Origin: a virus
DNA length: 21,898 nucleotides
Strand: one strand, 5' to 3'
IMG/VR virus record: IMGVR_UViG_3300018053_000047
Span: 1-21,898 of that record
The notes under the pieces are model-generated. The model made no database searches and was not told the origin of the DNA. It worked only from the letters and a program-made list of their open reading frames with translations. Of this stretch, positions 3,621 to 18,906 are shown piece by piece. How positions within the stretch are numbered: position 1 is the stretch's first letter; each line of letters begins with the position of its first letter. A program made the position numbers and the translations under genes.

Positions 3621-3625
3621 TCGAG

Positions 3626-4003
3626 TTACGTGTACTTGGGATGCGATATAATAGATGCCGCAACCAAGGCCGGTCCGGTCACTATTGTCCCAACACAGCG
3701 AACCCATCCGGCAACTGCTCCCGCCGGGATTGTGCGTTTCTGGATCTGATTAGTGGCACCAGCAACATAAGCGCCTTCGTTAGGCGTAATAGCCGCAGCA
3801 CCAGTCCCTGAACCGTCGCTCGCATGTTCAATAGTCCATGTAATGGAGCCAGCGGTAAGGACGCCCACATGGTTCACAAACACAATGTCGCCCTCTACTG
3901 GGCGAACATCAACCCATGCGCTCGTAGCCGCAGCTGTGTTGGCTGCAGATACAGGGTTTAACAATGCTACCGAGTTAGAAGCCTGACCTTGATGGGATAA
4001 CAT
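3626..4003 (-). CDS. Virion structural protein, head region (125 aa)
   Basis: Starts MLSHQGQASNSVALL three bases after the preceding stop, with AGAGGT about 9 bases upstream. After a short variable N-terminus the sequence is beta-rich and small-residue-rich, with 'GSITWTIEHASDGSGTGAA', a pattern I associate with small structural proteins encoded just after phage capsid genes. There are no charged coiled coils or membrane segments. It is probably a capsid-associated or head-completion protein, but the exact role is unknown. It sits between the 107-aa gene and the gpFII-like gene in a tightly packed operon. Confidence 0.6.
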   Translation of the reverse strand: MLSHQGQASNSVALLNPVSAANTAAATSAWVDVRPVEGDIVFVNHVGVLTAGSITWTIEHASDGSGTGAAAITPNEGAYVAGATNQIQKRTIPAGAVAGWVRCVGTIVTGPALVAASIISHPKYT

Positions 4004-4396: not shown

Positions 4397-6328
4397 CTAT
4401 GTGATGCTCGCCGCCACTGAAAAGGCTGTGGGATATCTCACAGCAATATCTATAGATGCAATTGCACGCACCCCGACAATTCCAGCCTGGAAATTCGCAA
4501 ACGGGTTGACCTCAACCTCGAGCACACCCCACTCGCCAACAATCACTTGGCCAAAATCACCAAAGATCATAGTGGCTGCCGGCATTTGGTTAGATGCCAT
4601 TCCACGATAGCCGTCCACGTTTGCGCTTTCCAGACGCCCTTCCCAGATCGGTGAAGCAGTGCTGGCAAACTTAACGCGAGTTTTCAGCAAGCCAGCTACA
4701 GCACCTGTAGTGACATACCCAGAAGCTTCAGTAAGCGCATTTCCGGCAAATACATCTGTCTGGAATTCCACTATATCGTCATAAGCGAGAGAAGTACCTG
4801 TCACCGCTCCAACCCCAGAAGTACCGATAATGCCCAAAGGTTGACCGGACGCACCTGAGCCGTTTAGTCCAGCTAGGTCGATAGCCAGAGCAACCACAGT
4901 GGCGAGATCAGACATCACCAAACCCTCTACAGCAGGATTGGCTTGTAACAGCAATTGCCTGCTGATCTCCGTGTAACCCCCAACGTTCTTGGGTGACATG
5001 GCAATCTGCACAAAGGTTTGCGTGATCTCGGTTATTCCCGTGGCTTCTGTTGCTAACCAAGTCGCTGACCCGGTTGCGGACTGCTTCGGAATAGCTACAT
5101 TTCCTTGCAATCCTGGAAGGCGGCGCGCACCCATGTTGAACAAAACCGAACGATTGCGAAGCAATTCAATAAACCCAACATTCGCGGTCTCGACCAAAAA
5201 TCCACCTGCGCCAGCAGTGGCTACGGTTAAATCACGTTTCAGGATGGCGTAAGCAAGGTCTTCAACCGGAGACCTTGCTGCTCTCTCTTGCACCTCGTAA
5301 GGAACATAGAACTTTTGTGGATCAGGATTCCTGCCAAGCTTCTGTGCAATAGCGCGCGAGCACTCTGCCTCGAATCCGGCATTGGTCCAATTCCCACCGT
5401 CGCTAACTGCCAGGATGGCCTTCGCAATGGAAAATCTCCTGGTTTCTGCACTGGTCAATCCAATTTTTGAGATGACCTTTGACCCATCTTTACCGCGCGA
5501 TTCTAGAATACCCATGAGTTCCTGAGACACCTGCCTCATTGATGCGCCAGAAGTAATCCACTCATTCTTGATTCTTTGGTCGATATTGTTAGCCTTGCAG
5601 AGATTCTCAATACCCTCCCTACGGTCCTTCTCCATATCCATGGCCTGGGTACGGCGTTCTGTGGGTCTGGTATCTCGACCTTCGTTCCCAGACTTTGCTG
5701 CTACTTCATTGTCTTGCACCCAAGACTGGGATTCGTGCTGTTCGGCGACTTCGCCCGCCGTGGCGCTTGCTTCGGTAGACATATTTGTCTCCTGTGTTTC
5801 GGCGGCTGCCGCCGGTTCATTGATGGTCCGAAAGTGGACCTCTGTTTCGCTATCCGCGAAATTCCTTCCGACCCCTACGGTAATATCCGCAGGGACAGTA
5901 ACGATCGATATTTCCATTGGCTCCCACTCAGTGATCCGGAAAGTATTCGTCTTTTTATCTTCCTCGCCATCAATGATTCTGTATGCCATTGACACATTGG
6001 ACAGGATGTCATCTTCGACCATACCGAATACTTCATTACCTCTATCGTGCTTACCAAACCTGACTAGCGCATGACCCTTGCGATCAGCGCCGTTGCGCGC
6101 CCCCTCTATCACCCCAACAACATCATCAATATGATGATTAAATAATGCGTTCGCGCGTGAATTCAGGCGATCAAGACGCATGCCGTCGCCATGAACAAGA
6201 ATTTCTTTCCCCCATATACGATTAACAGGTTCTTCGGAAGAAAAAGAAAGCTCAACCGTCCGATTATCTTTATCAATCTTCCGGCTAATGCCTCTTGGAA
6301 ATAATCTGTATTGAGTTCCTAACTTCAT
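4397..6328 (-). CDS. Fused HK97-type prohead protease and major capsid protein (643 aa)
   Basis: Residues about 1-165 match the HK97 prohead protease family (peptidase U35): 'RTVELSFSSEEPVNRIWG', 'ANALFNHH' with the candidate catalytic His, 'DDILSNVSMAYRI' with the candidate catalytic Ser, and 'WEPMEISIVTVPAD'. A charged, Gln/Glu-rich linker and delta-like helical region follows (about 170-330). Residues about 340-643 match the HK97-fold major capsid protein: 'VATAGAGGFLVETANVGFIE', 'LLRNRSVLFNMGARRLPG', 'DLAGLNGSGASGQPLGI' and a C-terminal strand 'VGVRAIASIDIAVRYPTAF'. The family normally cleaves the delta domain during prohead maturation; here protease and shell protein come from one polypeptide. 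There is one continuous frame with no frameshift. It is preceded by a 79-aa gene one base away. Confidence 0.93.
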   Translation of the reverse strand: MKLGTQYRLFPRGISRKIDKDNRTVELSFSSEEPVNRIWGKEILVHGDGMRLDRLNSRANALFNHHIDDVVGVIEGARNGADRKGHALVRFGKHDRGNEVFGMVEDDILSNVSMAYRIIDGEEDKKTNTFRITEWEPMEISIVTVPADITVGVGRNFADSETEVHFRTINEPAAAAETQETNMSTEASATAGEVAEQHESQSWVQDNEVAAKSGNEGRDTRPTERRTQAMDMEKDRREGIENLCKANNIDQRIKNEWITSGASMRQVSQELMGILESRGKDGSKVISKIGLTSAETRRFSIAKAILAVSDGGNWTNAGFEAECSRAIAQKLGRNPDPQKFYVPYEVQERAARSPVEDLAYAILKRDLTVATAGAGGFLVETANVGFIELLRNRSVLFNMGARRLPGLQGNVAIPKQSATGSATWLATEATGITEITQTFVQIAMSPKNVGGYTEISRQLLLQANPAVEGLVMSDLATVVALAIDLAGLNGSGASGQPLGIIGTSGVGAVTGTSLAYDDIVEFQTDVFAGNALTEASGYVTTGAVAGLLKTRVKFASTASPIWEGRLESANVDGYRGMASNQMPAATMIFGDFGQVIVGEWGVLEVEVNPFANFQAGIVGVRAIASIDIAVRYPTAFSVAASIT

Positions 6329-6329
6329 G

Positions 6330-6569
6330 TCATAAATCCCATTTCACAAATACATTACCGTAGAAGGACGCACTAATTTTTCTTAAACATTCACCATGAC
6401 GTACAGCCGGTAAATCCGGGTGCTCGATGCGCATCAGCAAAACTCCTCCGTAATAGTTCGGATCTGTCTTCGCTTCCAACAATTTGGTATCAGAAGGTAA
6501 TTTGAGCGCTCGCAGTAGCATCTCCGGTGATACTTCTAACAGCGCCATACGTCGCGGCTCTAGCTCCAT
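6330..6569 (-). CDS. Hypothetical protein before the capsid gene (79 aa)
   Basis: Starts at ATG 6569 (MELEPRRMALLEVSPEMLLRAL) and stops one base before the protease-capsid ATG, so the two are probably co-translated. The N-terminal half is an amphipathic helix; the second half is beta-like ('GGVLLMRIEHPDLPAV', 'ISASFYGNVFVKWDL'). It resembles small unannotated proteins that precede capsid genes in other phages, but I cannot name a function. The ribosome-binding site is weak (AAAGATGAG). It starts only 24 bases after the T-tract of a terminator, so its transcription depends on read-through or on a promoter I could not identify. Confidence 0.65.
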   Translation of the reverse strand: MELEPRRMALLEVSPEMLLRALKLPSDTKLLEAKTDPNYYGGVLLMRIEHPDLPAVRHGECLRKISASFYGNVFVKWDL

Positions 6570-6593
6570 TCACTCATCTTTCTTTCAGGCAAT

Positions 6594-6615
6594 AAAAAGC
6601 CGCCACTTGGCGGCT
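6594..6615 (-). terminator. Rho-independent terminator closing the surface-protein cassette
   Basis: GCCGCC and GGCGGC, extended by an A-T pair, close a four-base loop and are followed on the minus strand by TTTTTATTGCC. It lies after the 518-aa beta-helix gene and just ahead of the capsid operon. The tail after the T-tract (ATTGCC) is shared with the terminators at 19.7 and 20.35 kb. Confidence 0.88.
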
Positions 6616-6639
6616 CTGTAACAACTCTTAAAATGCGCT

Positions 6640-6678
6640 CTAATCTTGTTCTAGCATCCAGCCATCATCCATGCCGAC
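6640..6678 (-). repeat. Decayed second copy of the 3' end of the 1463-aa gene
   Basis: The minus-strand sequence would read LVGMDDGWMLEQD-stop, close to the end of the 1463-aa protein (ALGMDEGWLLGQD-stop). Aligned base by base with 8569-8607, 31 of 39 positions agree, including the stop codon TAG. No ribosome-binding site or long frame accompanies it, so it is a remnant or recombination scar and not a gene. Together with its partner it flanks the 95-aa and 518-aa genes as a direct repeat. Confidence 0.7.
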
Positions 6679-6707
6679 TAGAGAGTTTAGAAAATTGTCT
6701 TAACCAT

Positions 6708-8264
6708 CTACCATCCAGACACCGAGAAGTCATCTATGTAAATAGTCCCATTGCCTAGGCTGGTTAGGTCAAACCTGAATTCCAGCGCGTTGGCCCAAAC
6801 AGGAGCCTCCCTAGAGCCAACCGGGCGCTCCCCGCGCATAGTCCACGTATTCGTAGGAGTTATGGCTCCTGGACTGCCTATGTTTTGGCTAGCTATTATA
6901 GATGGCAGGCCGTTTTGATTAGTACCTATACGAACCCACTGCATGTTATATGTATAAGTACCAGTTACAGCACCGCTGATGTTCCGGTCCCAGTACCGAA
7001 CAGACATAACCTGGCCAGAGTTAGATAGCGGGATATAGCAATTAGCTGTTGCATCAGCCCCAGTAGATCGCGTAATGGCTAGTGAACCGGTTCCAGTATT
7101 GGCAGTAGTAGTGCTGCGTGCAGTAGCTACTGAAGTCCCCGTCCCGCGAGCGTCGAAAGTTGCCGCCCCGGTGCAGTAGAATCCTACGCTCTCGGTAGTC
7201 TCAAAACCGCCATCCACTAGCGAATTCCTTAAATCACTCGCTAGTGCATATGGCATCTCGGATACGTCATAGAACTTTGTTCCATCTACAACAATAAGCC
7301 CAGTGCCTATGGCGAAATGCTCGGCCGTGTTGCGGAAGTTAACCATAAGCGAACCGCTTAAGCGAGCTGCCGCTGGCGAGGTGATATTAAAGTACTGCCC
7401 TACAGCATGCGGGGCACCCGCTGTATGTACAAATTCACCAGCAACGAACGAAGCTCTAGACCCGGACCCTGACAAAATAAACCACGTTGACGTATCATCA
7501 CTGCCCTCAAAATGACATCCGCTAAAGTGTGTGCGCCCGGCTGTCTGGGTTAACAAATATCCGGTGTTGTAGTCCATATGCATCCCATAGAAAAACATGT
7601 CCGTCTCGGGATCAGCTAGGTTTATTCCATTCACACCATTGGCTATGACACTGCCAAACCAACGCAGTCCCTCACCCTTATTGGCTCCGCTTGGTACTGA
7701 GATTGCAAGACCACAATCGTAATAATTGCAGTTGTAATGATTCGTCAGATAGGCATTGTCGCCAAATGCCTCGCCTATCCCAAAATCCTTAACCATGATA
7801 TCCCTGACTTCAACATTGGCTACTCCAGCCAATCCAGTTCCTGGCGTTAAATTAAGCGCAGTCACTGTGCCAGCCTGCCCATTGCCCAGCAAACGCAACC
7901 GCTCCAATGCAACAACATGCTGATCATAAAGCCCGTAACCTGAAGCGGAGCTTCCAGTCAGGGTTATTACGGAACCGGATGTAATAGAGCTAGCATCTAT
8001 GCTGATATTGTTGAAATCAACCCCGGTTTTTGAGACATCAATTGTGATTCCTGAATTAATTTTGCATCCAGCAACTTCATTAGAGTCAGGGAAAACAAGA
8101 GTGCCCTTTGTTGTGCCGCTTACAGCATTAATGGCGTTTTGTATTGCGGCTTTGTCGTCAGCAGTACCATTGAATACTGCTCCGTAACGCTCTAAGGCTT
8201 TTCCGAAACGCCTATCTTGTTCCGCTAGCCTTCTCCTAGAGGACAACTCCAGGGCATGCCTCAT
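6708..8264 (-). CDS. Beta-helix tailspike-like protein with C-terminal carbohydrate-binding-like domain (518 aa)
   Basis: After a basic N-terminal segment (MRHALELSSRRRLAEQDRR) the motif 'YGAVFNGTADDKAAIQNAIN' is the typical opening of the pectate-lyase-superfamily right-handed beta-helix seen in phage tailspikes. Repeated short strands rich in N, G and hydrophobics continue to about residue 350. The C-terminal part (about 355-518) begins 'NSLVDGGFET' and ends 'TIYIDDFSVSGW', like carbohydrate-binding sandwich domains (CBM4/9-like). It likely binds or cleaves host surface glycans as part of the virion; enzymatic activity cannot be assigned. Its start overlaps the stop of the 95-aa gene (ATGA), so the two are coupled. 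It could also be a capsid-attached fibre, given its place in the head gene region. Confidence 0.82.
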   Translation of the reverse strand: MRHALELSSRRRLAEQDRRFGKALERYGAVFNGTADDKAAIQNAINAVSGTTKGTLVFPDSNEVAGCKINSGITIDVSKTGVDFNNISIDASSITSGSVITLTGSSASGYGLYDQHVVALERLRLLGNGQAGTVTALNLTPGTGLAGVANVEVRDIMVKDFGIGEAFGDNAYLTNHYNCNYYDCGLAISVPSGANKGEGLRWFGSVIANGVNGINLADPETDMFFYGMHMDYNTGYLLTQTAGRTHFSGCHFEGSDDTSTWFILSGSGSRASFVAGEFVHTAGAPHAVGQYFNITSPAAARLSGSLMVNFRNTAEHFAIGTGLIVVDGTKFYDVSEMPYALASDLRNSLVDGGFETTESVGFYCTGAATFDARGTGTSVATARSTTTANTGTGSLAITRSTGADATANCYIPLSNSGQVMSVRYWDRNISGAVTGTYTYNMQWVRIGTNQNGLPSIIASQNIGSPGAITPTNTWTMRGERPVGSREAPVWANALEFRFDLTSLGNGTIYIDDFSVSGW

Positions 8265-8548
8265 TTAGTCTGCACTCCGTCATAACCAAGGAGCTTCGCG
8301 GCACTTGCGTGCGTATTCTTTATTCTTACTCTAAGCGCGTTCTTGCAGTGAAATTGCAGGTTTGTTTCTGCCCCGGCACCAGCCATTACAGAAAATGTAA
8401 GCGTATTGGTCCCGTCATACCATTGCAGGTCTACATTGTCCTCGTGATAAATGTTATGAATAACCACCTCAACCCCGGCTCCTGGTTGAATATCCAAGAC
8501 TGAGCCAGCAGCTACGCTGCTCAACACACTGAAAACATCACCAACCAC
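8261..8548 (-). CDS. Small virion-associated protein upstream of the tailspike (95 aa)
   Basis: The start is GTG at 8548, with GAGGG about 8 bases upstream; an earlier ATG stops after four codons. The product is a compact beta-rich protein: 'SVAAGSVLDIQPGAGVEVVI', 'WYDGTNTLTFSVMAGAG', 'NALRVRIKNTHASAAKLLG'. I recognise this pattern from small proteins commonly encoded beside phage fibre or spike genes, usually annotated hypothetical. ATGA overlap with the 518-aa gene indicates co-translation, so it may be an adaptor, decoration or assembly partner of that spike. The role is inferred from context only. Confidence 0.7.
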   Translation of the reverse strand: MVGDVFSVLSSVAAGSVLDIQPGAGVEVVIHNIYHEDNVDLQWYDGTNTLTFSVMAGAGAETNLQFHCKNALRVRIKNTHASAAKLLGYDGVQTK

Positions 8549-8568
8549 TATCTTGCCCTCATATAAAA

Positions 8569-8607
8569 CTAATCCTGTCCTAATAACCAGCCTTCATCCA
8601 TGCCAAG
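8569..8607 (-). repeat. Intact partner of the duplicated 3'-end segment
   Basis: This is the 3' end of the 1463-aa gene, including its TAG stop. It matches 6640-6678 at 31 of 39 bases in the same orientation. The pair flanks the 95-aa and 518-aa genes. Confidence 0.68.
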
Positions 8608-11600
8608 CGCAAAACATCTTTTCTGAGAAGCAAGCATAAATTGAAATATAAATCCATTATCAATGGTTATCTCTATAGGCTCAGCTATCAACACGCGCTC
8701 GACTCGCAATTCAGCAGGATGGCCTATTACTTCAAACGAACCGCCCTCTGCTTCTAATTCAAACTCGAATAGCTGCGGCGGCTGTTCTAACTCTTCCGGT
8801 TCTTGCCATTTGTGAATCTCGAAAGCAGGCGTCCATTGTTTAAATATCTGAGGTTCGCCAACCCAACTTCCTGTAGTTACACCACCGACAGAACCGGTAA
8901 CAAACCCGTTCGTGGAGGTGGTATCAGCGTCTTCTGTGGCGGCTATAGCGCCAGTAAGCGCCGGTAGGGTTATGAACCCTCCTAGCGTACCGACATCCTC
9001 GCCTTCTGTTACAGCAATGGACCCGGATGCTTTTACGACACCAGCTATTGCTGATGTATCAGCGCCTTCCGTAACACCTACAGTTCCGCCCTGGCCAACA
9101 ATGGCACTTATGCTGCTTGTATCTGCCGATTCGGCAATAGCTGATGTTCCAGCCACTACTACAATCCCGGCCCCTGCTGCGGTATCAACAGATTCAGTTA
9201 CGGCTGATGTACCCAGAGTACTAGCAAGACCTGCTGCCGCAGCAGTGTCTGCATCCTCATTAGCGGCTACCGTAGCCGCTAAGCCAAGCGCCCCGACAGC
9301 AGTCGATGTATCTGCTGACTCAATTAGCGCTGCGGTTCCTAATGCCGCCAGAGCACCAGACGCAGTTGATGTGTCGCTAGCCTCTGTGGTGGCTACCGAA
9401 CCACTAATCGCGGTGCCAACCGACCCAGATATGACAGAAGTATCATGTGCTTCGGCAGCCTCTATCGTGCCAATTGCGTTTACAATCCCTGATGCTGTAC
9501 TAGTGTCCGCCTGCTCGGTCGATGCAATAGATCCGATAACCGCGACCACAGCAGTCGCGTTTGACGTATCCACCGACTCGGTAACGGCAACTGTCCCAGT
9601 TACCCCAATTGCCGCATCGCCAGAGGCAGAACAAGTATCGGCAATTTCCGTTACATCTGCGGCACCTAGCGTGACCGCTAAAGCTGCAATAGATGATATG
9701 TCATCAGATTCGGTTATTGATACAGTTCCAGTTGCGGTTACGGTCCCATCTACTGAGACTGTATCAGTCGCCTCTGTTACCGCAACTATACCGGTCCACT
9801 GCACAGCACCAGATATACTCGGGCTGTCGGCCACCTCGATAATGCCAGATGAGCCAATAGCAGCAATTACGCCGGCCGCATTACCTGAATCTGTGGCTTC
9901 TGTTACCGCTATCGCGCCAGTGCGCGATACAGCGTCAGGCCTGACGACAATGGTGTTAGCTATCCATTGCTCGGAGCCTATCGTTGCTGTACCAGGATTT
10001 TCAGATCCCGAGTTCAGCGCCCGAGTGGCCATGGCCACTCCGGCACCGCCGGCATTGACCCAACGATTTGTTACTTGGTTATCAGCATAGTCGGCTGGAT
10101 ATGACGTATGCGATACATTACCGTCCCAACCATAAACAACGATCCAGCGCGAAAATTCTGATCCCCAATTAGCTGGATCGAGGCTTGGCGGGTTTGGGTT
10201 AGTGCTCGAACCAGTGGCGGCTGTGCCTACTGCCAGACCTTCAACTGCAGAACCGTACCAACCGGTAATCCTATAACTAGCGTGCGCAGAACCTTCGCTC
10301 GAACTAGTCGTTACGGTGATAGTAGTTCCTTCGCCACCATCAGCCGAGCGACTGAAAACTGTTAATCTATTTGCAGTGCCATTAACCTCGGTGAATAGTT
10401 CATTCCAGCCAGTCGCCGGTGTAGTGACGCTGGCAGTAGCAGCACCATCATTCGAAAATGCTACTAACAGTAAATCTCCTGCCGCTATGCTCGTCGGTAG
10501 ATTGACTGTATGCGCCGTGCCATTACCTGCCGAATTGCCGCTATTAGTAGCCACTACAGACGGGGCTGACATAACGGTACCAATCGACTCCACAGAGTCA
10601 GCACCATCGGTGATGGCAGTAGAGCCGATTACTGTGACGAGTCCCACAGCAGATGTAGTATCAACTGTTTCTGTGGTGGCTACAGTGCCGCTAACAGCAC
10701 TGCCGACTACCCCAGATACAGATACTGGGTCCTGGGCTTCCGAAACGTCTATGGTGCCAGTTGCTTCAACTATACCTGACACTGTGCTAGTGTCATCCTG
10801 CTCGGTTGTGGAGACTGAGCCAATGCCAGAGATCACAGCTGCTATGCTGGACGTATCCTCAGCTTCCGATACTTCGACCGTACCGCCTTGACCCACAATA
10901 CCCGAAATGACAGGAGCATCGACGGACTCTGTAACTGCTATGGTTCCGGTAACAACTACCAAGCCATCAACTACTGATGTGTCAGTAGACTCAGTTACAG
11001 CTATTGTTCCTATAGAACTGACTATGCCTTGAGACGATCCAGAGTCAGGATTCGATAGGCCATCGAACAGCTCCGTAATTGAAGCCATTCCGGTAGCAAC
11101 AATAGCTCCGGTAGCCGCGCTTACATCCTCAGCTTCGCTTACAGCGATTGTTCCTGCAACTACAGGTATTTCACCAAAAACAATTACCCCGTCAGCCAAT
11201 AAATTGCCAACACGAGTCCTACCTATTTCATCCAGCAATAACCATACAAATTCCCCAGTTTCTGTAATCTTCTGCGAAGCATCACTTACTGAACCGGATA
11301 TTGCCGAGACATCTGCTGACTCTGTTACAGCTATTGTGTCTACAACGCTTACGGTACCGTAAGCCGTGGTGAAATCTTTAAGGACTATCGATGTGTCGGC
11401 CTGCTCGATTATGGAAACAGATCCTTCAGCAGGCAAGAATCCGCCAATTGTTGCTCCGTCCGATAGTTCCTCTATTTCACTTGAGCCTATTATTCCGCTA
11501 ACCACAACCCCGTCTATAGAGGAAGTATCGTCGGATTCATTTAGTACAATTTCACCGCTGCTTATCGTCAGACCGGTAATATCCGATGTATCTTCTTGCT

Positions 11601-12960
11601 CAGTTGCCCCGGATGTGCCACTGATAGTTAAAATGCCATCGGCAGATGCCGAGTCGCTTTCCTCTGTTACGGCGACAGTCCCGAACCATTGCACAGACCC
11701 AGATGTAGAGTCTGTATCATCGGACTCTGTAATCTCTAAAGCACCAGTAGAAGTGAGCGTGCCTGAGGCACTCAATGTGCTATCCGCTTCGGTTATTGCT
11801 AGCGTGCCGCCTGTGGCTATTGCACCTACAATCTCCGATGTGTCATTCGCCTCGGTAACGTCCGCCGAGCCGGGAGATATGGCTGTGCCTGAGGCTGAAG
11901 CAGTATCAGCAGTCTCGGTTACATCCGCCGCGCCTTGCGCAATTATTAAACTGGTAATAAATGACGTATCATCATCTTCTGTTACGCCAGCCGTACCAGT
12001 GCCAACTATCAGTGCTGCTACAGATGATGTATCGGCGGCCTCTGTAACCCCAACTGTTCCAGTGGAAAGCAATACACCAGTAGCCGAAGCAGTATCGCTT
12101 GCCTCAGTAACATCTATAGTTCCCAGAGCGGTAACTGTCCCTGAGGCACTAGCTGTACTGGCGTCCTCCGTAATAGCCACCGTGCCTGACACAGTTACGG
12201 AAGCAGCAATAGCTGACGTGTCCGCAGCATCCGTAGTAGCACTGGTACCGGTAATACTTCCGCCAGCACTCTCTACATGGAAATCTGGTAGTGATATTGC
12301 CCGGAAAATAGGTGGATGCGCAGAATCAGCTAACGTACCAGTTACTGTTAGCTCAAGATTCGTTACAATATCTATTTCAGGGCCGGTTTTTCCTATAATT
12401 GGCCGGTAGGAAATAAGATTTTGAGGCCTAATGCAAAGTGGACTTATACCTTTCGCAAGAGCCTCAACTTCGGCCTGGCTTAAATCCGCGTCCCAAATTG
12501 CAAGCTCCGCCAAGCTACCTGCGAACGGGTCTCCTGTTGCAGCGAGCTGAAGGACTCCTACTCGCTCATTGACCAAACCTGTCGGTGTGCTACTACTAGT
12601 ATTCGTTCCACTAGATGCCCAGTTACCGGCACTTACAACTCGACGGCTAGTAGCAGAAGTTCCTATAGAGGCAGCATGTGTCCATGTATTTACGCTTGGT
12701 GTATTAGTCGCGCGCGCTGTACTAAACACTCCGGAAATCACTGAATCAAATGTCAGTTGTCCGGAGTTATCCCCGTCTAAGTATGCTTGCCACCAGGTAT
12801 TGGTGCTAGTTCCAACAGATTCACTCCATAAAGTATGGTAATTGCTTGCGGCTGGAAGGCCGGACGAGTTATACCAAATACTTACGGTGAACGGATATGC
12901 TGTAAAGGCCGCCGCCGATCTGCCTAAATAGTTCGCAGTAGAAAATCCTGAGCGAGCCAT
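8569..12960 (-). CDS. Giant LamG-domain protein with about 40 degenerate 21-residue repeats (1463 aa)
   Basis: Residues about 1-225 are a concanavalin-like LamG domain ('AYPFTVSIWYN', 'GSLAELAIWDADLSQAEVEA'). About 237-797 hold some 24 copies of a roughly 21-residue repeat, consensus G-T-h-x-h-T-E-x-x-D-T-S-x-h-x-G-h-h-x-x-x (h hydrophobic), for example 'GTVAVTEESDSASADGILTIS'. About 797-1010 form a separate beta-sandwich-like domain ('AHTVNLPTSIAAGDLLLVAF', 'ANTIVVRPDA'). About 1013-1360 hold some 16 more repeats. The last 100 residues are charged and end 'GMDEGWLLGQD'. Two irregular spots occur near residues 480 and 570. There is no signal peptide, so display on the virion is more likely than secretion. 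The repeats probably form an extended stalk or stacked beta structure carrying the glycan-binding LamG head. The whole frame is intact; function is inferred. Confidence 0.85.
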   Translation of the reverse strand: MARSGFSTANYLGRSAAAFTAYPFTVSIWYNSSGLPAASNYHTLWSESVGTSTNTWWQAYLDGDNSGQLTFDSVISGVFSTARATNTPSVNTWTHAASIGTSATSRRVVSAGNWASSGTNTSSSTPTGLVNERVGVLQLAATGDPFAGSLAELAIWDADLSQAEVEALAKGISPLCIRPQNLISYRPIIGKTGPEIDIVTNLELTVTGTLADSAHPPIFRAISLPDFHVESAGGSITGTSATTDAADTSAIAASVTVSGTVAITEDASTASASGTVTALGTIDVTEASDTASATGVLLSTGTVGVTEAADTSSVAALIVGTGTAGVTEDDDTSFITSLIIAQGAADVTETADTASASGTAISPGSADVTEANDTSEIVGAIATGGTLAITEADSTLSASGTLTSTGALEITESDDTDSTSGSVQWFGTVAVTEESDSASADGILTISGTSGATEQEDTSDITGLTISSGEIVLNESDDTSSIDGVVVSGIIGSSEIEELSDGATIGGFLPAEGSVSIIEQADTSIVLKDFTTAYGTVSVVDTIAVTESADVSAISGSVSDASQKITETGEFVWLLLDEIGRTRVGNLLADGVIVFGEIPVVAGTIAVSEAEDVSAATGAIVATGMASITELFDGLSNPDSGSSQGIVSSIGTIAVTESTDTSVVDGLVVVTGTIAVTESVDAPVISGIVGQGGTVEVSEAEDTSSIAAVISGIGSVSTTEQDDTSTVSGIVEATGTIDVSEAQDPVSVSGVVGSAVSGTVATTETVDTTSAVGLVTVIGSTAITDGADSVESIGTVMSAPSVVATNSGNSAGNGTAHTVNLPTSIAAGDLLLVAFSNDGAATASVTTPATGWNELFTEVNGTANRLTVFSRSADGGEGTTITVTTSSSEGSAHASYRITGWYGSAVEGLAVGTAATGSSTNPNPPSLDPANWGSEFSRWIVVYGWDGNVSHTSYPADYADNQVTNRWVNAGGAGVAMATRALNSGSENPGTATIGSEQWIANTIVVRPDAVSRTGAIAVTEATDSGNAAGVIAAIGSSGIIEVADSPSISGAVQWTGIVAVTEATDTVSVDGTVTATGTVSITESDDISSIAALAVTLGAADVTEIADTCSASGDAAIGVTGTVAVTESVDTSNATAVVAVIGSIASTEQADTSTASGIVNAIGTIEAAEAHDTSVISGSVGTAISGSVATTEASDTSTASGALAALGTAALIESADTSTAVGALGLAATVAANEDADTAAAAGLASTLGTSAVTESVDTAAGAGIVVVAGTSAIAESADTSSISAIVGQGGTVGVTEGADTSAIAGVVKASGSIAVTEGEDVGTLGGFITLPALTGAIAATEDADTTSTNGFVTGSVGGVTTGSWVGEPQIFKQWTPAFEIHKWQEPEELEQPPQLFEFELEAEGGSFEVIGHPAELRVERVLIAEPIEITIDNGFIFQFMLASQKRCFALGMDEGWLLGQD
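8880..9930 (-). repeat. Repeat array II: about 16 coding repeats, 63-bp period
   Basis: Tandem units of about 63 bases encode G-T-h-x-h-T-E-x-x-D-T-S type repeats, for example 'GSIASTEQADTSTASGIVNAI' minus its last residue. Neighbouring units differ strongly in DNA sequence while keeping the protein pattern. Some units carry two or three extra residues before the next G. Confidence 0.85.
10570..12250 (-). repeat. Repeat array I: about 24 coding repeats, 63-bp period
   Basis: The same 21-residue unit as array II, with interruptions near 11230 (an insert of about 40 residues without the motif) and 11050 (extended unit). A three-unit block with the marks STEQ/TTEQ, GTI..EA.D and SGVVGSAVSG matches a block in array II (SGSVGTAISG), which indicates block duplication between the arrays. 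Confidence 0.83.
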
Positions 12961-12965
12961 TGTCT

Positions 12966-13457
12966 TTATGTCTCTTTTATTTCTACGGCCACAAGCTCAG
13001 CATCACCAGCGGCATTATCGTTTGCGACATCTCTGCGCACTCTTAGCCTAAATGCTTCGCCAACTGCAATGCTATCAATGTTTGCGCCGTTAGTTACCGC
13101 TACATTGGTTATGTCTACTAATCCAGATGTGCCTGGTACAGTAGCAGCCGTAACTACTTGAGCAGTAGCGAAGCTATCAGCATCTAAATCTTGCTGCCCA
13201 TCGCCAATACGCTCAAAAGCCACATCCCAACCGATGGTCCCGGTAGTGGCCGTACTCGCTGCCCAGTGTACATAAACAGTAACTCCTCCACCCCCGTAGT
13301 GCCTAGGTAATACACTTGTCCAGATTGCGCTTTCCTGTGTAGTAGTATCGAAATCCAACACTGGATGCTGGTTTCTCGTGTCCAACGTTGCGTAATTCGT
13401 GGCCGTAGGTTCATATGCTAACGGGGTAAACACCAATAACGTATTACCTGTTGCCAT
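12966..13457 (-). CDS. Virion-type structural protein (163 aa)
   Basis: Starts MATGNTLLVFTPLAYEPTAT immediately after the stop of the 99-aa gene (adjacent bases). It is a compact beta-rich protein with 'RNQHPVLDFDTTTQESAIW', 'GGGVTVYVHWAASTATTG' and a closing 'LRVRRDVANDNAAGDAELV'. I recognise near-identical patterns in many environmental phage genomes, always next to structural or fibre genes and without a described function. The jelly-roll-like strand pattern and position suggest a small virion or receptor-associated component. Operon neighbours on both sides are repeat-bearing proteins. The ATG is preceded by only weak ribosome-binding sequence, so translational coupling to the 99-aa gene is likely. 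Confidence 0.7.
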   Translation of the reverse strand: MATGNTLLVFTPLAYEPTATNYATLDTRNQHPVLDFDTTTQESAIWTSVLPRHYGGGGVTVYVHWAASTATTGTIGWDVAFERIGDGQQDLDADSFATAQVVTAATVPGTSGLVDITNVAVTNGANIDSIAVGEAFRLRVRRDVANDNAAGDAELVAVEIKET

Positions 13458-13757
13458 TTAGGAATTCTCCGAAATATATGCGATGCCGGTAATCTGCGGT
13501 ATATACTCTAAAATAAACGCAGTCCCAATAATTTTTCCTGTCGCAGTAATCAAGACAGTGTCCGCTATTTCTGTTGCACCAAGGTTACCGCCTGCCCCTA
13601 CCATTCCAATAATAGCAGCGGTATCAACCGCCTCTATAAACAACACTGAGCCAGCAACAGGAGCACCACCGACTGTCCCGGACGCAGATAGCGTATCTTT
13701 CGTTCCTCCGGTGGACCACAAGATTGCCGTTATCTGTGACTGATCTTTTAGAGCCAT
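13458..13757 (-). CDS. Short protein made of the same repeat as the giant protein (99 aa)
   Basis: Begins MALKDQSQITAILW and then contains about two and a half copies of the 21-residue repeat: 'TKDTLSASGTV', 'GSVLFIEAVDTAAIIGMVGA', 'GNLGATEIADTVLITATG'. It ends 'GIAYISENS', echoing 'GYAYILE', the end of the protein encoded just upstream. It starts 4 bases after that gene's stop and runs straight into the next ATG. It may be a detached repeat module that associates with the repeats of its neighbours, or a remnant of a longer repeat protein. No catalytic feature is visible. Confidence 0.7.
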   Translation of the reverse strand: MALKDQSQITAILWSTGGTKDTLSASGTVGGAPVAGSVLFIEAVDTAAIIGMVGAGGNLGATEIADTVLITATGKIIGTAFILEYIPQITGIAYISENS

Positions 13758-13761
13758 GTAG

Positions 13762-15585
13762 TCACTCTAATATATATGCATAACCAGTAGTAGCCGTTAC
13801 GGTTATCGCGCCAGAGGCGGCAGCCAAATCAGGCGCATCTGTTATTAACACAGTTCCAGTAATATTTGCGTCTTGAAACTCCAAAGCCCCAATATTGGGG
13901 GCTGTCCCGCTTATAACTTGCCGCCCAGCCGAATCCTTCCACAGCCAAACATAATCTCCATCATTACGTGTGATAGAACTCGTCAGAGTGACAGTATTTG
14001 TGGAATAGTTGATCCCTGCTAGCTGAATCTTTGTTGCGCCAGTGACATTATTGCTGGTAGGTCCTACGGCGATCCAATCCCACTGCACCCCCATCCATGC
14101 AGGGAACCCTGACACGTCGTAGAAAAATCTTGCATCATCCAGGATTAGGCTTGTCCCTGTACCTGTATCTGCAATTGCAACTCTGGTGAGAGGCGCACCG
14201 CCGTCTATGTATGGACTTGAACTAGTTAGCGTGAAATCGTTGGCAGCATAATTAGTAAATCCTGGTGCAGCATCGTAAACATTTGCGAAGCCATTCCAGT
14301 CGCGGAGATCTGGGCCAGTAGGATTAGTAAAGTTAGCCTTGGCCTCAGCCAATGTCCATCCACTATCGTTCCAAAACAAAATATCTTCCGATGAAGAACC
14401 GCCTGGGTTGCCCACTACATTGCGGATAAATCTGTCGTTTACAGTCGGAGTCGGATCTCGGTAAACAATGCATATGTTGGACCAGAACTGAGCATTCCCA
14501 TCATAGAAGAAATTGTTGACTAAAATCCCATCACCTATAATGTGCGAAGTGCTTCCGATAAAATTGGCAATACCAAAAGGCACTCCAGCAGAATCCACGG
14601 CGGTATTGTTGTAAATGCGGTAACCAGTTACCGGCTGCACATTGTCACCACCATAGCCTCCAGCTATCCCACCCTGAGAATCGAATCCACACGGTGCTCG
14701 ACATCCTTCGAACAGAGTGTTGTATCGGATTAACATGTTGGTCGAACCGACCTGCAAAGAACTACCGAAATTACACTCAGGACCTATGCAAGTCGGAATT
14801 TGTGCTTGGCACTGTAGCCGCGAATTCTCGACTAGCATGTTCGGGCCGCAGTTGTAAATAGATTGCGCGGTATGCGCGTTATTCCAAACGAAGTTTCCTC
14901 TTGACGCAATGAATGAACCGTTAGAACCCTGGTTATTGAAAGTAATATGTCTGGAAGCACCATCGAAGATGTTATCTTCAACCAAACAATGATCAGACAT
15001 TCCACCCATGTTTATCAGATCTTCCACCCCCGTACTAACACTAGTTGTGGAATTCCCGGTGATGTGGCACTGTCGTAAAATATTAAACCTTGTTTGTTCC
15101 TGTTCCCCGAAGCTATGGACCCCGAATTGAATACCATAGTTAGTGGCATTCGTATCCGTGGATACAGATATGAGATTGGACATAATGCATCCAGTAGCAC
15201 CATTAAAGGAAGCCATGGCACTCACTTGCCCAGAAGGCAAAACTATAACTATTCGACGAACGTCAACAGCATCAGAATCCCCTCTGCCTATGACACTTAC
15301 ATAGCTCTTATTTGATAGGTTGATAGCTCCTCTCTTAGTAGATCCAGTGCTGGAGAACCCTGTTAAATTTACGGTGCCGTTGCCAAAGGCTTGATAGGTG
15401 ATCCGATTAGCATCCGAGGTTCCGTCGTTAGTAGATCGAATAGCATCGCTATACGTACCAGCCTTTATGTAGACCTTGTCTCCAGCGACTAATGTCGTGT
15501 TGGCCTTACCTATAGTTAGCCAAGGCGACGCCTCAGTTCCGGCATTACTATTATTGCCCCCCGGGGCAATATAGTACGTAGTCAT
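13762..15585 (-). CDS. Right-handed parallel beta-helix virion protein with C-terminal repeat unit (607 aa)
   Basis: The N-terminus 'TYYIAPGGNNSNAGTEASPW' followed by 'GDKVYIKAGTYSDAI' is the classic opening of extracellular polysaccharide-lyase-like beta-helix proteins. The middle (about 80-480) is full of short N/G-rich rungs such as 'NILRQCHITGNSTT', 'LVEDNIFDGASRHITF' and 'YRIYNNTAVDSAGV'. Cysteines cluster near residues 245-300 ('CIGPECNFG', 'EGCRAPCGFD'), unusual for a cytoplasmic protein and possibly metal-binding or disulphide-forming. The last 35 residues carry one copy of the repeat of the 1463-aa protein ('GTVLITDAPDLAAASGAI'). It is probably a glycan-binding or glycan-cleaving spike or fibre. 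The start abuts the stop of the 29-aa frame. Confidence 0.8.
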   Translation of the reverse strand: MTTYYIAPGGNNSNAGTEASPWLTIGKANTTLVAGDKVYIKAGTYSDAIRSTNDGTSDANRITYQAFGNGTVNLTGFSSTGSTKRGAINLSNKSYVSVIGRGDSDAVDVRRIVIVLPSGQVSAMASFNGATGCIMSNLISVSTDTNATNYGIQFGVHSFGEQEQTRFNILRQCHITGNSTTSVSTGVEDLINMGGMSDHCLVEDNIFDGASRHITFNNQGSNGSFIASRGNFVWNNAHTAQSIYNCGPNMLVENSRLQCQAQIPTCIGPECNFGSSLQVGSTNMLIRYNTLFEGCRAPCGFDSQGGIAGGYGGDNVQPVTGYRIYNNTAVDSAGVPFGIANFIGSTSHIIGDGILVNNFFYDGNAQFWSNICIVYRDPTPTVNDRFIRNVVGNPGGSSSEDILFWNDSGWTLAEAKANFTNPTGPDLRDWNGFANVYDAAPGFTNYAANDFTLTSSSPYIDGGAPLTRVAIADTGTGTSLILDDARFFYDVSGFPAWMGVQWDWIAVGPTSNNVTGATKIQLAGINYSTNTVTLTSSITRNDGDYVWLWKDSAGRQVISGTAPNIGALEFQDANITGTVLITDAPDLAAASGAITVTATTGYAYILE

Positions 15586-15675
15586 TTAGAGACGCGCTCC
15601 CTTGCGGCGATTTTCTTCGGCAAGAAGAACCTGAGCAAGTGCCGTGCCGGCGTAAGTCATTGATTTATCAGGCAT
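15586..15675 (-). CDS. Micro-protein bridging two virion genes (29 aa)
   Basis: The frame reads MPDKSMTYAGTALAQVLLAE and then nine more residues, ENRRKGARL. Its ATG overlaps the stop of the upstream 134-aa gene by 8 bases, and its TAA directly abuts the ATG of the beta-helix gene. It therefore fills the only gap between the two without waste. The product is one amphipathic helix with a basic end. It could be a real small protein, or a leader whose translation couples the flanking genes: AAGGGAG near its end serves the next start. No family is recognised. Confidence 0.5.
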   Translation of the reverse strand: MPDKSMTYAGTALAQVLLAEENRRKGARL

Positions 15676-16072
15676 TTCCAGCGGTCACGGTGAACGAAGT
15701 AACACTCACCTGTTGACCAGATGAAATCGCGGTGCTATTCAAATTAAGGTCCGATCCAGAAGTTCCTACATTCCCGTCGATGACGCAAGAGCCAGTTGAT
15801 GTCACACAACGGAACCAAGTAGCCGTCCCGGTAGCATTAGCGCTTGCGTCAGCAGTAATAGCCGACATAGTGAGAACACCGGAAGACGCCGCCGCTGCAC
15901 ACGGGTCAGTAAACGTCAACTCAGCCAGTAGAGTTGTCGCTGTACCGCAGGTCGCTGGGCGAGTACCGTCATAAATTCTAAGGAACCCGGCACCAGCGCC
16001 TCCATCAATTGCGTCCCTAACCACATTAAGACGCGGGTTTCTAACCAGAACAACATCATAAGAAATTGCCAT
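15668..16072 (-). CDS. Virion-type structural protein (134 aa)
   Basis: The start at 16072 (MAISYDVVLVRNPRLNVVRD) is preferred over the ATG two codons upstream because AGGAG lies 8 bases before it and only 2 before the other. The pattern 'DAIDGGAGAGFLRIYDGTRP' and 'TTLLAELTFTDPCAAAASSG' belongs to a very widespread small phage protein found beside fibre, head-tail or decoration genes, generally annotated hypothetical. The fold is likely a beta sandwich, with a Cys pair 'RCVTSTGSC' in the middle. It is the first gene after the double terminator and so opens the surface-protein cassette. Function is not established. Confidence 0.7.
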   Translation of the reverse strand: MAISYDVVLVRNPRLNVVRDAIDGGAGAGFLRIYDGTRPATCGTATTLLAELTFTDPCAAAASSGVLTMSAITADASANATGTATWFRCVTSTGSCVIDGNVGTSGSDLNLNSTAISSGQQVSVTSFTVTAGNA

Positions 16073-16090
16073 CGTCATATCTCCTGACGT

Positions 16091-16204: not shown

Positions 16205-16537
16205 TCATCGGTGATATGTCTCAATATTGGCCAGCACCCACTTCTGGGCGTCAATAACTGCATCGCCTCGTTTATCAGTCACATCTACCGCGTCTTTTAC
16301 GACCTTACTTGTTGCGTAATCGTAGAAACGCACTCCCCACCGCCAGCCTTCATCGTCACTTCCACCGACCCTGATTTCCCAATACACAGAATATTTGGCG
16401 CGCGGATAATCATGGATACTAATCAGGTCACGTGGCTTAGTTTGTGCCAGTTTCAGATCCGTCTCTGCCCGCCCCTCTAAAACCTTCTCCAGGGAAGCCC
16501 TGTAGTCGCCATACGGTCGTTTTTTATACTTACTCAT
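16205..16537 (-). CDS. Hypothetical basic protein downstream of the portal (110 aa)
   Basis: The start at 16537 (MSKYKKRPYGDYRASLEKVL) is fixed by an ATGA overlap with the preceding gene and by AGAGGTGA about 9 bases upstream; a longer frame reaching 16630 would lie inside that gene. The N-terminus is strongly basic with a helix; the second half is beta-like with 'RAKYSVYWEIRVGG', 'EGWRWGVRFYDYATSK' and a final helix 'DAVIDAQKWVLANIETYHR' minus its ends. The aromatic-rich strands suggest a small compact domain. I do not recognise the family. It is the last gene before a tandem terminator. Confidence 0.65.
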   Translation of the reverse strand: MSKYKKRPYGDYRASLEKVLEGRAETDLKLAQTKPRDLISIHDYPRAKYSVYWEIRVGGSDDEGWRWGVRFYDYATSKVVKDAVDVTDKRGDAVIDAQKWVLANIETYHR

Positions 16538-16953
16538 ACTGGAATCACCTCTCCAATCACCTCTCCGAACCTCACCGTAAACGGCTCGGCCATTTGCAAC
16601 ACAATGCTTTCTCCGGGATAGTCCCACCAAGCAATAACAGGCTTTTGTGGTGCAGTGTCGTTGTAAAGCGCCGCGTGCTTAAACGGGCCAATGACTCCAC
16701 CGAAAGCTCTGAATTCCACATTAGTACCTCTGAACTTAGCCTTTCCGTCCTCCATCCACGTGGCCATCGTTGTGGCTTTGCCACCAGATGGGTAACCGTT
16801 ACCTGAGGTTATTTCTTTCAAATCAAACTTGACGCTATAGGTAGCCTGGGGTGCCTCGTTGGTCAGCATGATCTTATAAGTATGCTTATCGAAGTTATGA
16901 ACACCGGCAATCAGATCCTTAGTAAAGGCAAGGAATTTATTATAAGCAGCCAC
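16534..16953 (-). CDS. Widespread phage virion-type protein (139 aa)
   Basis: The start is GTG at 16953, with GGGAGG about 8 bases upstream, directly after the portal stop. The pattern 'HNFDKHTYKIMLTNEAPQAT', 'ITSGNGYPSGGKAT' and 'FGGVIGPFKHAALYNDT' followed by 'IAWWDY' and 'FTVRFG' is a very common small phage protein of unknown role, usually beside portal, tail or fibre genes. It is beta-rich, without membrane or coiled-coil segments. It is probably a structural or assembly component. It overlaps the next gene by four bases. Confidence 0.7.
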   Translation of the reverse strand: MAAYNKFLAFTKDLIAGVHNFDKHTYKIMLTNEAPQATYSVKFDLKEITSGNGYPSGGKATTMATWMEDGKAKFRGTNVEFRAFGGVIGPFKHAALYNDTAPQKPVIAWWDYPGESIVLQMAEPFTVRFGEVIGEVIPV

Positions 16954-18906
16954 CTAAACCGCCTCCCGCCTAGTAGATTTAATAAGCCCACGCTCATCTC
17001 TTTCTTCCACGATTGTTCGCATAGCCCTTTCTTCAGGAAAGTTAACAACTGTCTGCGGAATGTTAATTACCGGCGGCTCAATCTTGATTTGTGAAGCCGC
17101 TACGTTAACCACTGGCGCTTCCTGTCTAGGAATGTCAAACCTGATCTCAGGCGTGGTCACATTTACCACAGGGGCATCCTGTTTCATGTGTATCTGTGAC
17201 GGTGGTAGGTTAAACGTTGATCCCTCTATTGTTACATTGCGCTCAGGGATATGCGCATGGATTACCGGAGAAATATTGAATGCCATGCGCGGCTCTTCTT
17301 CAGTAACTGGATTGAGTTGTTCTTGGGCCGGAGCCTGAGTCTGTACCTGCGCTACTTTCGCCATATAGACTTCAGGATCAGTATCAAAAATCAAATCCTT
17401 TTCCTTCATCATGTCCAACTCGCGCCTACGCGTGTTCAACACGTCCTCGATATCCTGACCCCCACCAGTCTGAGCTATGACATCAGTAACAGTGGTAAAC
17501 CCGGCATTGACCGCCTCCTTGTAAGCCGCGACTTCCTTAGGCGGGTCCACCCATGACCATCCACGCGGCTTCCAAATTACCGCCTCGAACTTGCGCGGAT
17601 TGGCTGCATATTCATCAACAGAGATGGATCTAATCGCGCGAGACAAAACAGCCTGCTGTAACCATTCACTGTGTATTGGAATACAGAATGACCTGATAAA
17701 CCATTGCTGCAACATTCTCCAAAGGTCCCTGTCATCCAGTAGTGCTAGGCGGCTCGAGCTGTAATTGCTCTGTGAATAATCCCGAGACAGGCTCTCATAG
17801 GACACTCCAGAACCGGCAGCGACTTCTCTCAACATCAGCCGCATGAATGGGTCTACATTGGCGTTAGGACGACCTGGGTTAACAAAATCATATTTTTCTC
17901 CAGGCCGAAGGCGCATTTGCATCCCGGGGGTCATCTCTACCTCCGTAGACCCGTCCTCCTGAGCCTCTCCTCCCATAATATTTGGTGAGGTTTCTGGAGT
18001 CTCTATGATGCCCATGTAAGACGCAGCGCCACGGGCAGCGATAATCTCGGCCTCTGAATAACCATCCATGTCATTCAGCTTTCGCGCCGCAGTATGTAAC
18101 CACGGCTCGCCGCGAGTCTGCGGCCATCGATCAATCATCCGAAGATGCAATATTTGGTCAGCCGGAATACGCTCGACTTGCTCGCTTGACTGAGAACTTA
18201 ATCGAATATCTCCAGGATGCGCATTTCTGATCCAATAGGCTAGCGGCCTAAAGAACCTGTCTGCCTCGACTCCCATGCGTATAGTGGATTCGCTACCTAA
18301 CCCTACAGGTAGCGTGGGACTCATGAATTCGTCAGCTAGGCGCTCACCCTCTATCATCTCCAATGCAAACGGAACAGGAGAATTACCAAATGTCCTGTAA
18401 TACTTTCGGAATAATACTTCGCCAGCCTCAAATACCTGTCCTGCTCCAGCCCGCTCCATGTCGAAGCGATGCATTAACCCTCCGGTGTGCCAATTATTGG
18501 CAAGACAGCTCTCTCTCCAAACTTCTTCTATCTCGTCGTTTACCCGGTCATTCAGCCCACCTCGTGCTGTCATGACCTGGGCCTGCATGCCGATGCCAGA
18601 ACCGATTAGGTTGTTTTGAACTATTACTTTTGCCCTTTTCGCATATCCTGAATCACGCCCTAACGCACGTGACCTGCTACGCAGGGTAGTGAGGCTAGTT
18701 ACAAGCTCGTTATCAGCACTGCTATTGGAAATCTTCCAGCCAGCGGTAAGCCTAGAAGCCTGCGCAGCGTGATACATGCGCTGATGCGTGTTGGAGTGCT
18801 TGGATAACTCAGCCTTCAGGCGCTCGTTCTCAAGTTCCGCACGTTCTTTCTCTTGTACTAGGCTCGGAGCGATGAATGCCTGGATTTTGTCGAGAAAGTT
18901 AGCCAC
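16954..18906 (-). CDS. Portal protein, lambda GpB family (650 aa)
   Basis: The start is GTG at 18906, one base after the upstream stop, with only weak ribosome-binding sequence. The N-terminal region 'NTHQRMYHAAQASRLTAGWK', 'LRSRSRALGRDSGYAKRA' and 'NNLIGSGIGMQAQV' is characteristic of lambda-type portals (phage_portal_2). So are 'FEAGEVLFRKYY', 'ADQILHLRMIDRWPQTRG' and 'SGVSYESLSRDYSQSNYSS' further on. The protein forms the dodecameric ring at the capsid vertex through which DNA is packaged. The core ends near residue 530. Beyond it is an unusual tail of about 110 residues with repeated 'APVVNV' and alternating Ile/Val/Pro strands, then a basic end. In lambda the portal is followed by protease genes; here a large cassette intervenes. 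Confidence 0.93.
   Translation of the reverse strand: MANFLDKIQAFIAPSLVQEKERAELENERLKAELSKHSNTHQRMYHAAQASRLTAGWKISNSSADNELVTSLTTLRSRSRALGRDSGYAKRAKVIVQNNLIGSGIGMQAQVMTARGGLNDRVNDEIEEVWRESCLANNWHTGGLMHRFDMERAGAGQVFEAGEVLFRKYYRTFGNSPVPFALEMIEGERLADEFMSPTLPVGLGSESTIRMGVEADRFFRPLAYWIRNAHPGDIRLSSQSSEQVERIPADQILHLRMIDRWPQTRGEPWLHTAARKLNDMDGYSEAEIIAARGAASYMGIIETPETSPNIMGGEAQEDGSTEVEMTPGMQMRLRPGEKYDFVNPGRPNANVDPFMRLMLREVAAGSGVSYESLSRDYSQSNYSSSRLALLDDRDLWRMLQQWFIRSFCIPIHSEWLQQAVLSRAIRSISVDEYAANPRKFEAVIWKPRGWSWVDPPKEVAAYKEAVNAGFTTVTDVIAQTGGGQDIEDVLNTRRRELDMMKEKDLIFDTDPEVYMAKVAQVQTQAPAQEQLNPVTEEEPRMAFNISPVIHAHIPERNVTIEGSTFNLPPSQIHMKQDAPVVNVTTPEIRFDIPRQEAPVVNVAASQIKIEPPVINIPQTVVNFPEERAMRTIVEERDERGLIKSTRREAV

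Follow-up and report, generated by a model that had tools for sequence, protein, structure and literature searches.

A probable host-binding appendage cassette between the portal and protease-capsid genes of an uncultured virus

IMG/VR virus record IMGVR_UViG_3300018053_000047 raises the question of what a block of long surface-type genes does between the portal gene and the prohead protease gene of an uncultured virus. The whole record, 21,898 bases, is called the window here. A first-pass annotation had described a 9.5-kb cassette that splits the head module, bounded on both sides by strong terminators, and had proposed a separately acquired or separately regulated unit whose proteins may decorate the capsid and not the tail. 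The interposed block is real, but its extent had been misjudged: portal and protease lie 10.6 kb apart, and the block begins at the portal stop, not at 16080. The earlier description had left out p139 (16534-16953) and p141. We consider it probable that the block, known from its genes alone, is a host-binding appendage cassette that was acquired and inserted into the head operon, because the combination of adaptor-like proteins with long repeat-rich and beta-helix proteins is best read in this way.

Predicted adaptors and long repeat-rich proteins

p136 is a member of the virion structural protein family phrog_3758 (E 2.9e-35). Its sequence matches 9rkv_A, deposited as 'Agrobacterium phage 7-7-1 tail fibers' (E 2.1e-7), and gp127 of phage Milano, with 39.7% identity across 79% of p136. 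A structural model built from 44 sequences (pLDDT 90.4) aligned with 9rkv_A at VIA Z 13.9 (root-mean-square deviation (rmsd) 2.2, 128 residues), with 9c39_K from the neck of phage Sf14 at Z 9.8 (rmsd 2.6, 108 residues), a chain whose identity as gp31 was checked, and with the Bas63 connector 9mt4_K at Z 9.7. Matches at Z 6.0-6.5 comprised the HFTV1 tail, a phi812 arm, the GP4 fibre-tail adaptor (Z 6.3), A511 gp105 (Z 6.2) and the phi812 baseplate, and the T4 star-baseplate chain 5hx2_C reached Z 3.9. Foldseek alone returned a single match at E <0.001, again 9rkv_A. Neck, tail and baseplate proteins but no capsid decoration protein are among the matches listed, and by its predicted fold p136 belongs to the fibre-adaptor fold group of gp8, gp105, garland and whisker proteins. 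Garland, T4 gp8 and A511 gp105 have one common fold according to the available text of PMC10811340.

The fold of A511 gp105, T4 gp8 and the GP4 adaptor, which is matched by the p136 model, is matched weakly by that of p139; the genes of these three proteins presumably lie among tail or baseplate functions. p139 starts directly at the portal stop (gap 0) and its profile matches 9d93_Ra, 'Tail wing arm, gp31', a tail-tip protein of Bxb1 (E 8.6e-4). Its model aligned with a T4 baseplate chain at VIA Z 9.4 and with the GP4 fibre-tail adaptor at 6.9, and had no Foldseek match at E <0.001. Overall, p139 points to the adaptor fold group of p136, though less firmly than p136 itself. p141, if read from its likely start, overlaps p139 by 4 bases and has no assigned function; its only family match is phrog_2261 (E 0.0053). 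As single sequences, neither p139 nor p141 matched the PDB.

The largest protein of the block had been described as a LamG-repeat giant. This description was rejected: the 1463-aa protein has no Pfam match, and its repeat is a 21-residue unit present in about 38 copies (41 motif matches, 38 after merging overlaps, with 22 spacings of exactly 21), whereas across 500 shuffles the matches averaged 8.0 and never exceeded 18. The copies form two blocks at residues about 237-800 and 1015-1360. A single LamG-like domain at the N-terminus is a reading by eye only. The giant also had no match in PHROG, the phage records or the viral-contig scan, and its second repeat block none in the PDB. One copy of the repeat occurs near the end of BH607 and two in p99, and these sequences may reflect shared docking or repeat exchange. 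The two proposed beta-helix proteins, BH607 and BH518, were borne out in part, since their matches are partial. BH607 matches PF22842 over residues 2-47, and its matches in the phage records cover the first 45 residues only (5 records); BH518 matches the tail spike family phrog_7458 (E 1.7e-5) over residues 25-114 only, and PF12708 below the cut-off of that family. For the small protein p163 we found no family match in Pfam or PHROG and no PDB sequence match, and for p95 weak PDB sequence matches only.

Inserts at several head-gene junctions in relatives

We compared 80 loci with the same head genes, 79 from a portal scan and one from a capsid scan of viral contigs, and counted an intergene gap of more than 1.5 kb as an insert. 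The slot counts include the window, and near-identical loci were left unmerged in these and in the p136 counts below. Inserts were present between TerL (terminase large subunit) and the head-tail joining gene (htj) in 17/41 loci, between the portal and the major capsid protein (MCP) in 7/74 and between MCP and the attach gene in 9/36, and were absent between htj and portal (0/67) and between attach and c5 (0/28). The portal-MCP gap is 10.6 kb in the window and 2.3-3.7 kb in the other six loci. A scan of bacterial genomes added 18 loci, 13 of which we take to be betaproteobacterial, with inserts at portal-MCP in 4/17, htj-portal in 1/17 and TerL-htj in 0/15; plasmid records held distant portals only. 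The sole locus with a large htj-portal insert is L191 (5375-9737), from a cyanobacterial metagenome-assembled genome (MAG).

In a quick portal tree, built from 91 of 99 loci with a portal (short matches left out; SH-aLRT support only), the state of the portal-MCP slot changes at least six times (insert in 10 of 84 rows), as does that of the TerL-htj slot (17 of 55 rows). The nearest neighbours of the window (L007, L003, L051, L019 and L022; support 89-91, not starred) are without a portal-MCP insert, and in L007, with 68% portal identity to the window, the portal and capsid genes overlap. L110 was omitted from alignment A2 and L012 from alignment A4 owing to a stop in the translation. The tree and the slot counts thus uphold the proposed separate acquisition of the block. 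Relatives do not consistently carry such genes here as normal tail fibres; their place varies. As comparable blocks occur at different places in relatives, the block may serve as an interchangeable host-gripping unit that belongs to the neck or tail rather than to the shell.

The nearest cultured phages by portal among the rows listed are the cyanosiphoviruses S-CBS1 and S-LBS1 (42-44% identity). Their capsid identity is 34%, and Serratia phage MQ-4 is slightly nearer by this measure (35.9%). Both cyanosiphoviruses have an annotated tail fibre or mtd gene between the capsid and tail genes and, unlike the window, a portal that adjoins the capsid gene with no cassette between.

We searched 24 of the 80 same-head loci and 32 of the 80 p136 loci for phrog_644, the family of p139; these loci were hand-picked, L134 for a prior p139 match. 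The family was found in 9 of the 24 same-head records, in all nine inside an insert: six times in the TerL-htj slot (L018, L013, L034, L009, L002, L021) and three times in the portal-MCP slot (L011, L063, L006). The match lies 6-7 bases past the upstream core gene in L018, L063 and L006, 150-266 bases past it in L034, L011 and L002 and about 0.8 kb past it in L013 and L009; that in L021 is weak (E 3e-4) and lies 2.4 kb into the insert. Insert-bearing records thus carry phrog_644 in 9/17 cases and insert-free records in 0/7 (hypergeometric 0.019, relatedness ignored). The p136 family was found in one of the 24 records, in the TerL-htj insert of L061. A further protein cluster, c16 (5 loci), is present in both the TerL-htj and the portal-MCP slot and matches phrog_13352, 'minor tail protein', in L018 (TerL-htj) and in L006 and L011 (portal-MCP).

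Other inserts differ in content. The portal-MCP slot of three bacterial contigs holds one or two large proteins (L192, 11551-13455, Pelomonas MAG; L193, 11827-13602, Zoogloea MAG; L195, 11571-14432, Ideonella paludis), which are GDSL/lipase/esterase-like in L193 and L195. The MCP-attach inserts of L022 and L018 encode, by eye, sugar-, methyl- or radical-SAM-type enzymes and not adhesins; in L022, glycosyltransferase-, methyltransferase- and radical SAM-like genes were seen by eye from p125 to attach (10022-12232). The large insert proteins of L018 (948 aa), L072, L061 and L024 had no PHROG or Pfam match. Since most other large insert proteins scanned are without a match, we do not extend the adhesin reading to all inserts.

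p136 also stands beside other head modules. Among the best 80 of 163 loci in the p136 scan, with PHROG families of upstream genes assigned by similarity to scanned representatives, p136 follows a portal gene within 1.5 kb in 26, and these portals belong to five PHROG families other than that of the window (phrog_146 in 10, phrog_156 in 6, phrog_1216 in 5, phrog_12082 in 4 and phrog_113 in 1). A capsid gene lies upstream within 1.5 kb in 14/80 and further off in 4/80. The nearest upstream gene is TerL, baseplate hub, scaffold or tape measure in one locus each, and 32/80 have none recognised. Five Pfam families were searched in 21 of these 32, yielding SPP1_portal in 3 (2 above the cut-off), Phage_capsid in 2 (1 above the cut-off) and Baseplate_J in 1, with Phage_portal and P22_portal in 0/21. 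The order portal, p136, head maturation protease recurs in L103, L109, L115 and L116, although the families differ from those of the window; the gene pattern is the same in L109 and L115, which are possibly one virus. In L113 and L119, p136 lies about 2.5 kb upstream of TerL, a further slot. Proteins with repeats of the giant's type occur in 53 of the 80 p136 loci by single-linkage clustering, which may over-join low-complexity proteins. p136 matches were also found in 53 phage records (40 of Mycobacterium, 7 Vibrio, 5 Rhizobium and 1 Agrobacterium phage); among the two whose gene context was viewed, the gene lies beside TerS (terminase small subunit) in Milano and in the tail module in CKB-S1.

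Terminators, block edges and neighbouring genes

The hairpin-plus-U sites described at both borders are present, the right one between BH518 and p79, but only this one falls at an edge of the block. A p141-like stretch lies close upstream of p136 in 25 of the 80 p136 loci, and the two form one uninterrupted open reading frame (ORF) in 18/25 and are separate in 7/25. Because p141 and p136 are so commonly fused, the left hairpins, which fall between them, are internal to the unit, and terminators as cassette borders were rejected on that side. The window as a whole contains 25 terminator-like sites, a mild enrichment over 15.5 (standard deviation 3.4) in shuffles.

Five hairpins, all on the coding strand, carry the tail TTTTTATTGCC with at most one mismatch, at 20347, 19707, 16121, 6598 and 3113 (z -1.6, -2.3, -5.3, -2.6 and -3.2, respectively). 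This compares with 0.43 expected, and 0/100 shuffles reached five. Tail-bearing hairpins also stand on both sides of the helix-turn-helix (HTH)-like gene and ahead of the DUF5060 gene, so the motif marks more than one kind of junction and is not specific to the block. The shared tail is possibly a duplicated terminator unit or recombination homology. Exact copies of the motif were absent from 815 kb of same-head relatives apart from L064, whose proteins common to the window are identical to those of the window and which, spanning TerL into the portal, represents the same virus or a very near one; a shorter form has one copy in L179, on the opposite strand. GGCGGCTTTTTTATTGCC had no copy in 13 genomes with related portals (13 of the 18 bacterial loci), a set that may not include the host of this phage. 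A promoter role of the tail motif, which is close to the next start codon, is unsupported. We infer that the cassette would be transcribed with the late operon, by read-through of leaky terminators or by antitermination.

At 6640-6675 the last codons and stop of the giant gene are repeated in the same frame, as judged by eye. In sequence this looks like a scar of gene replacement, although short two-copy repeats can arise by chance.

All main genes of the window lie on the minus strand (Table 1), in the order TerL, p121, HTH-like, head-tail joining, p80, portal, p139, p141, p136, BH607, p99, p163, giant, p95, BH518, p79, protease-capsid, p126, p125, Phage_attach and DUF5060. The protease-capsid gene is a fusion, assigned to phrog_617, of an S78 protease domain (E 1.3e-8) and an HK97-type capsid domain (E 7.5e-40). 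PDB sequence matches of p125 were weak only. After the Phage_attach gene sits a second large surface-type gene, the DUF5060 gene, whose protein had no match in the phage records. A tRNA-like element at 20186-20317 on the minus strand fits an acceptor stem and T arm with a long insert between; it scored 26.3 bits with the Rfam tRNA model against a cut-off of 29, and ARAGORN reports no tRNA there.

Table 1. Features of the window, in the order of the minus strand
Feature	Coordinates	Strand	Basis or remark
Terminase large subunit (TerL)	20816-21898	-	
HTH-like protein	19751-20134	-	
Head-tail joining protein (htj)	19137-19688	-	
Portal, lambda-family, 650 aa; upstream neighbour of the cassette	16954-18906	-	PF05136 E 7e-95; phrog_21
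p139, 139 aa; first cassette gene, putative fibre adaptor	16534-16953	-	phrog_644 E 8.8e-8
p141	16205-16537	-	ORF list; likely ATG at 16537 (hand count), listed ORF 16205-16630
Tandem terminator hairpins between p141 and p136	16142-16097	-	z -5.3
p136, 136 aa; predicted fibre-adaptor/neck-whisker/garland fold	15668-16078	-	phrog_3758; 9rkv_A
BH607, 607 aa; beta-helix-like protein	13762-15585	-	PF22842 E 3.1e-7, residues 2-47 only
p99, small	13458-13757	-	Two 21-residue repeat copies
p163, small	12966-13457	-	ORF list
Giant, 1463 aa; putative long adhesin	8569-12960	-	21-residue repeat
p95, small; no assigned function	8261-8548	-	ORF list
BH518, 518 aa; tail-spike-like beta-helix protein	6708-8264	-	phrog_7458
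Possible remnant of giant C-terminus	6640-6675	-	83% repeat of giant end 8569-8604
Terminator hairpin between BH518 and p79; downstream cassette edge	6617-6596	-	z -2.6
p79, small; adjoins the protease-capsid gene upstream; no assigned function	6330-6569	-	ORF list
S78 prohead protease-major capsid fusion, 643 aa; downstream neighbour of the cassette	4397-6328	-	
Phage_attach protein	3324-3707	-	
DUF5060 + Collagen_bind_2 protein, clipped by the window end	3-3107	-	

Neck, tail tip or shell

In the host-binding reading, p139 and p136 (with p141) would be small fibre adaptors that form dimers or chains docking on the virion, by analogy with Sf14 gp30/gp31, Milano gp125/gp127 and A511 gp105, and the repeat-rich giant and both beta-helix proteins would be attached through them as adhesins or spikes. 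The docking site would be the neck first, in the whisker position, with the tail tip close behind and the capsid lattice least likely. By analogy, the neck is favoured by the slot of the adaptor genes in Sf14 and by the frequent placement of p136 on the portal side, whereas in sequence the closest relatives of p136 favour the tail tip.

Sf14 (Ounavirinae) offers the nearest parallel in gene order. According to the available text of PMC11821841 its gp30 and gp31 are neck whiskers, and the genes run portal gp29, gp30, gp31, head maturation protease, decoration protein and capsid. As in the window, which is known from genes alone, small adaptor-type genes lie between portal and head protease, and gp31 has the fold predicted for p136. 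Unlike in the window, the Sf14 slot consists of two small genes with no long adhesin, repeat giant or beta-helix protein, and the protease is of the S49 and not the S78 type. In Milano, the gp124-gp127 cluster contains the p136 relative gp127 and a beta-helix tail spike, gp124, and like the block of the window lies at the packaging end of the genome. However, this cluster is placed between TerS and TerL and is assigned to the baseplate. In the available part of PMC10811340, gp127 belongs to a garland encircling the tail spike and short fibres, a placement based on fitting AlphaFold models into cryo-EM density too poor for building, and no 21-residue-repeat giant is mentioned in the cluster. 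Since the Milano genes stand beside terminase genes and their proteins on the tail, gene place alone cannot decide between neck and tail.

The most serious competitor is therefore an ordinary set of tail-tip receptor-binding proteins whose genes merely stand in the head region, as those of Milano do in the available text. It overlaps with the reading that we favour and differs in the docking site, and we regard it as a realistic possibility, if short of a probable one. In fold and in sequence, p136 matches tail-fibre or garland proteins best, and p139 resembles the Bxb1 tail-tip protein. On the other hand, in 40 of the 80 loci a portal or capsid gene lies within 1.5 kb upstream of p136, and in Sf14 the gene that matches p136 in slot and fold encodes a neck protein.

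Several observations weigh against a cassette of neck adaptors. The closest p136 relatives of known place, in Milano and 7-7-1, are on tails and not on necks. The p136-type gene of Vibrio phage CKB-S1 belongs to the tail module, baseplate genes are near p136 in L150, L152 and L104 (in L104, Baseplate_J about 4 kb upstream of it), and the portal lies about 15 kb upstream of p136 in L138 and about 17 kb in L143, the distances in these last three loci being mapped by hand. The p139 model has a pLDDT of 75, only fair, with most fold matches below Z 8; hhalign did not connect the p136 and p139 families in sequence. phrog_644 occurs in one of the 32 p136 records examined, and 7 of the 17 insert-bearing records have neither phrog_644 nor phrog_3758; because the families rarely co-occur, a working pair of p139 and p136 is only an inference. 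The hypergeometric value counts the weak L021 match and becomes about 0.033 by hand calculation when L021 is left out. No recognised receptor-binding domain was found in the giant, and among the ten insert proteins scanned seven had no match in PHROGs and all ten none in Pfam.

Decoration of the capsid, as first proposed, appears improbable. In its favour are the position of the genes among head genes, the 'head and packaging' category that PHROGs gives phrog_3758, and the capsid fibres of phage 7-7-1, although the available part of PMC12796354 gives their protein identity as unknown. However, the listed matches to the p136 fold come from necks, tails and baseplates, the Milano baseplate-garland protein gp127 is related to p136, and for its capsid Milano uses other genes (gp10, gp16 and gp128, in the text available). 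The fold and relatives of p136 led us to reject capsid decoration as the principal explanation. We give equally little credence to a moron, which would bring its own promoter and terminator and serve the lysogen and not the virion: the genes are inserted between head genes with terminators nearby, their flanking genes are adjacent in relatives and separated by more than 1.5 kb in only 7/74 loci including the window, and lipase-like slot genes of two bacterial contigs match a PHROG family filed as 'moron', but the block encodes virion-type proteins, and the sigma-70-like sites listed include none on the coding strand within 500 bases of the block edges, other promoter types being outside the scan.

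It is already known that host-binding or whisker genes can stand near head genes, as in Milano, Sf14 and the annotations of S-CBS1 and S-LBS1, and that other accessory genes can stand between portal and MCP, such as the kinase gene of five Gratiaviridae in the available text of PMC8008677. Among the open-access titles and abstract openings listed by our searches we found no description of a cassette in which the adaptor family is constant and the head slot varies. Tentatively, and with more doubt than for the window itself, many uncultured tailed phages could carry an exchangeable neck-whisker adhesin cassette, led by a p139- or p141-p136-type adaptor, that moves between head-gene junctions (TerL-htj, portal-protease and post-capsid) and between head modules that are unrelated. 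The neck, besides the tail tip, would in that case be a regular site of first host contact.

The usual place to look for host-binding genes is where the tail module ends, whereas here, by gene order and predicted fold, an adaptor cassette lies beside the portal. From one relative to another, such inserts shift position around head genes that remain. The comparable slot in the genome of Ideonella paludis, a cultured bacterium, may allow testing. If the appendage is one of the neck, phrog_644 and phrog_3758 would be sequence markers for finding such appendages in metagenomes, and these phages might make their first host contact by the neck.

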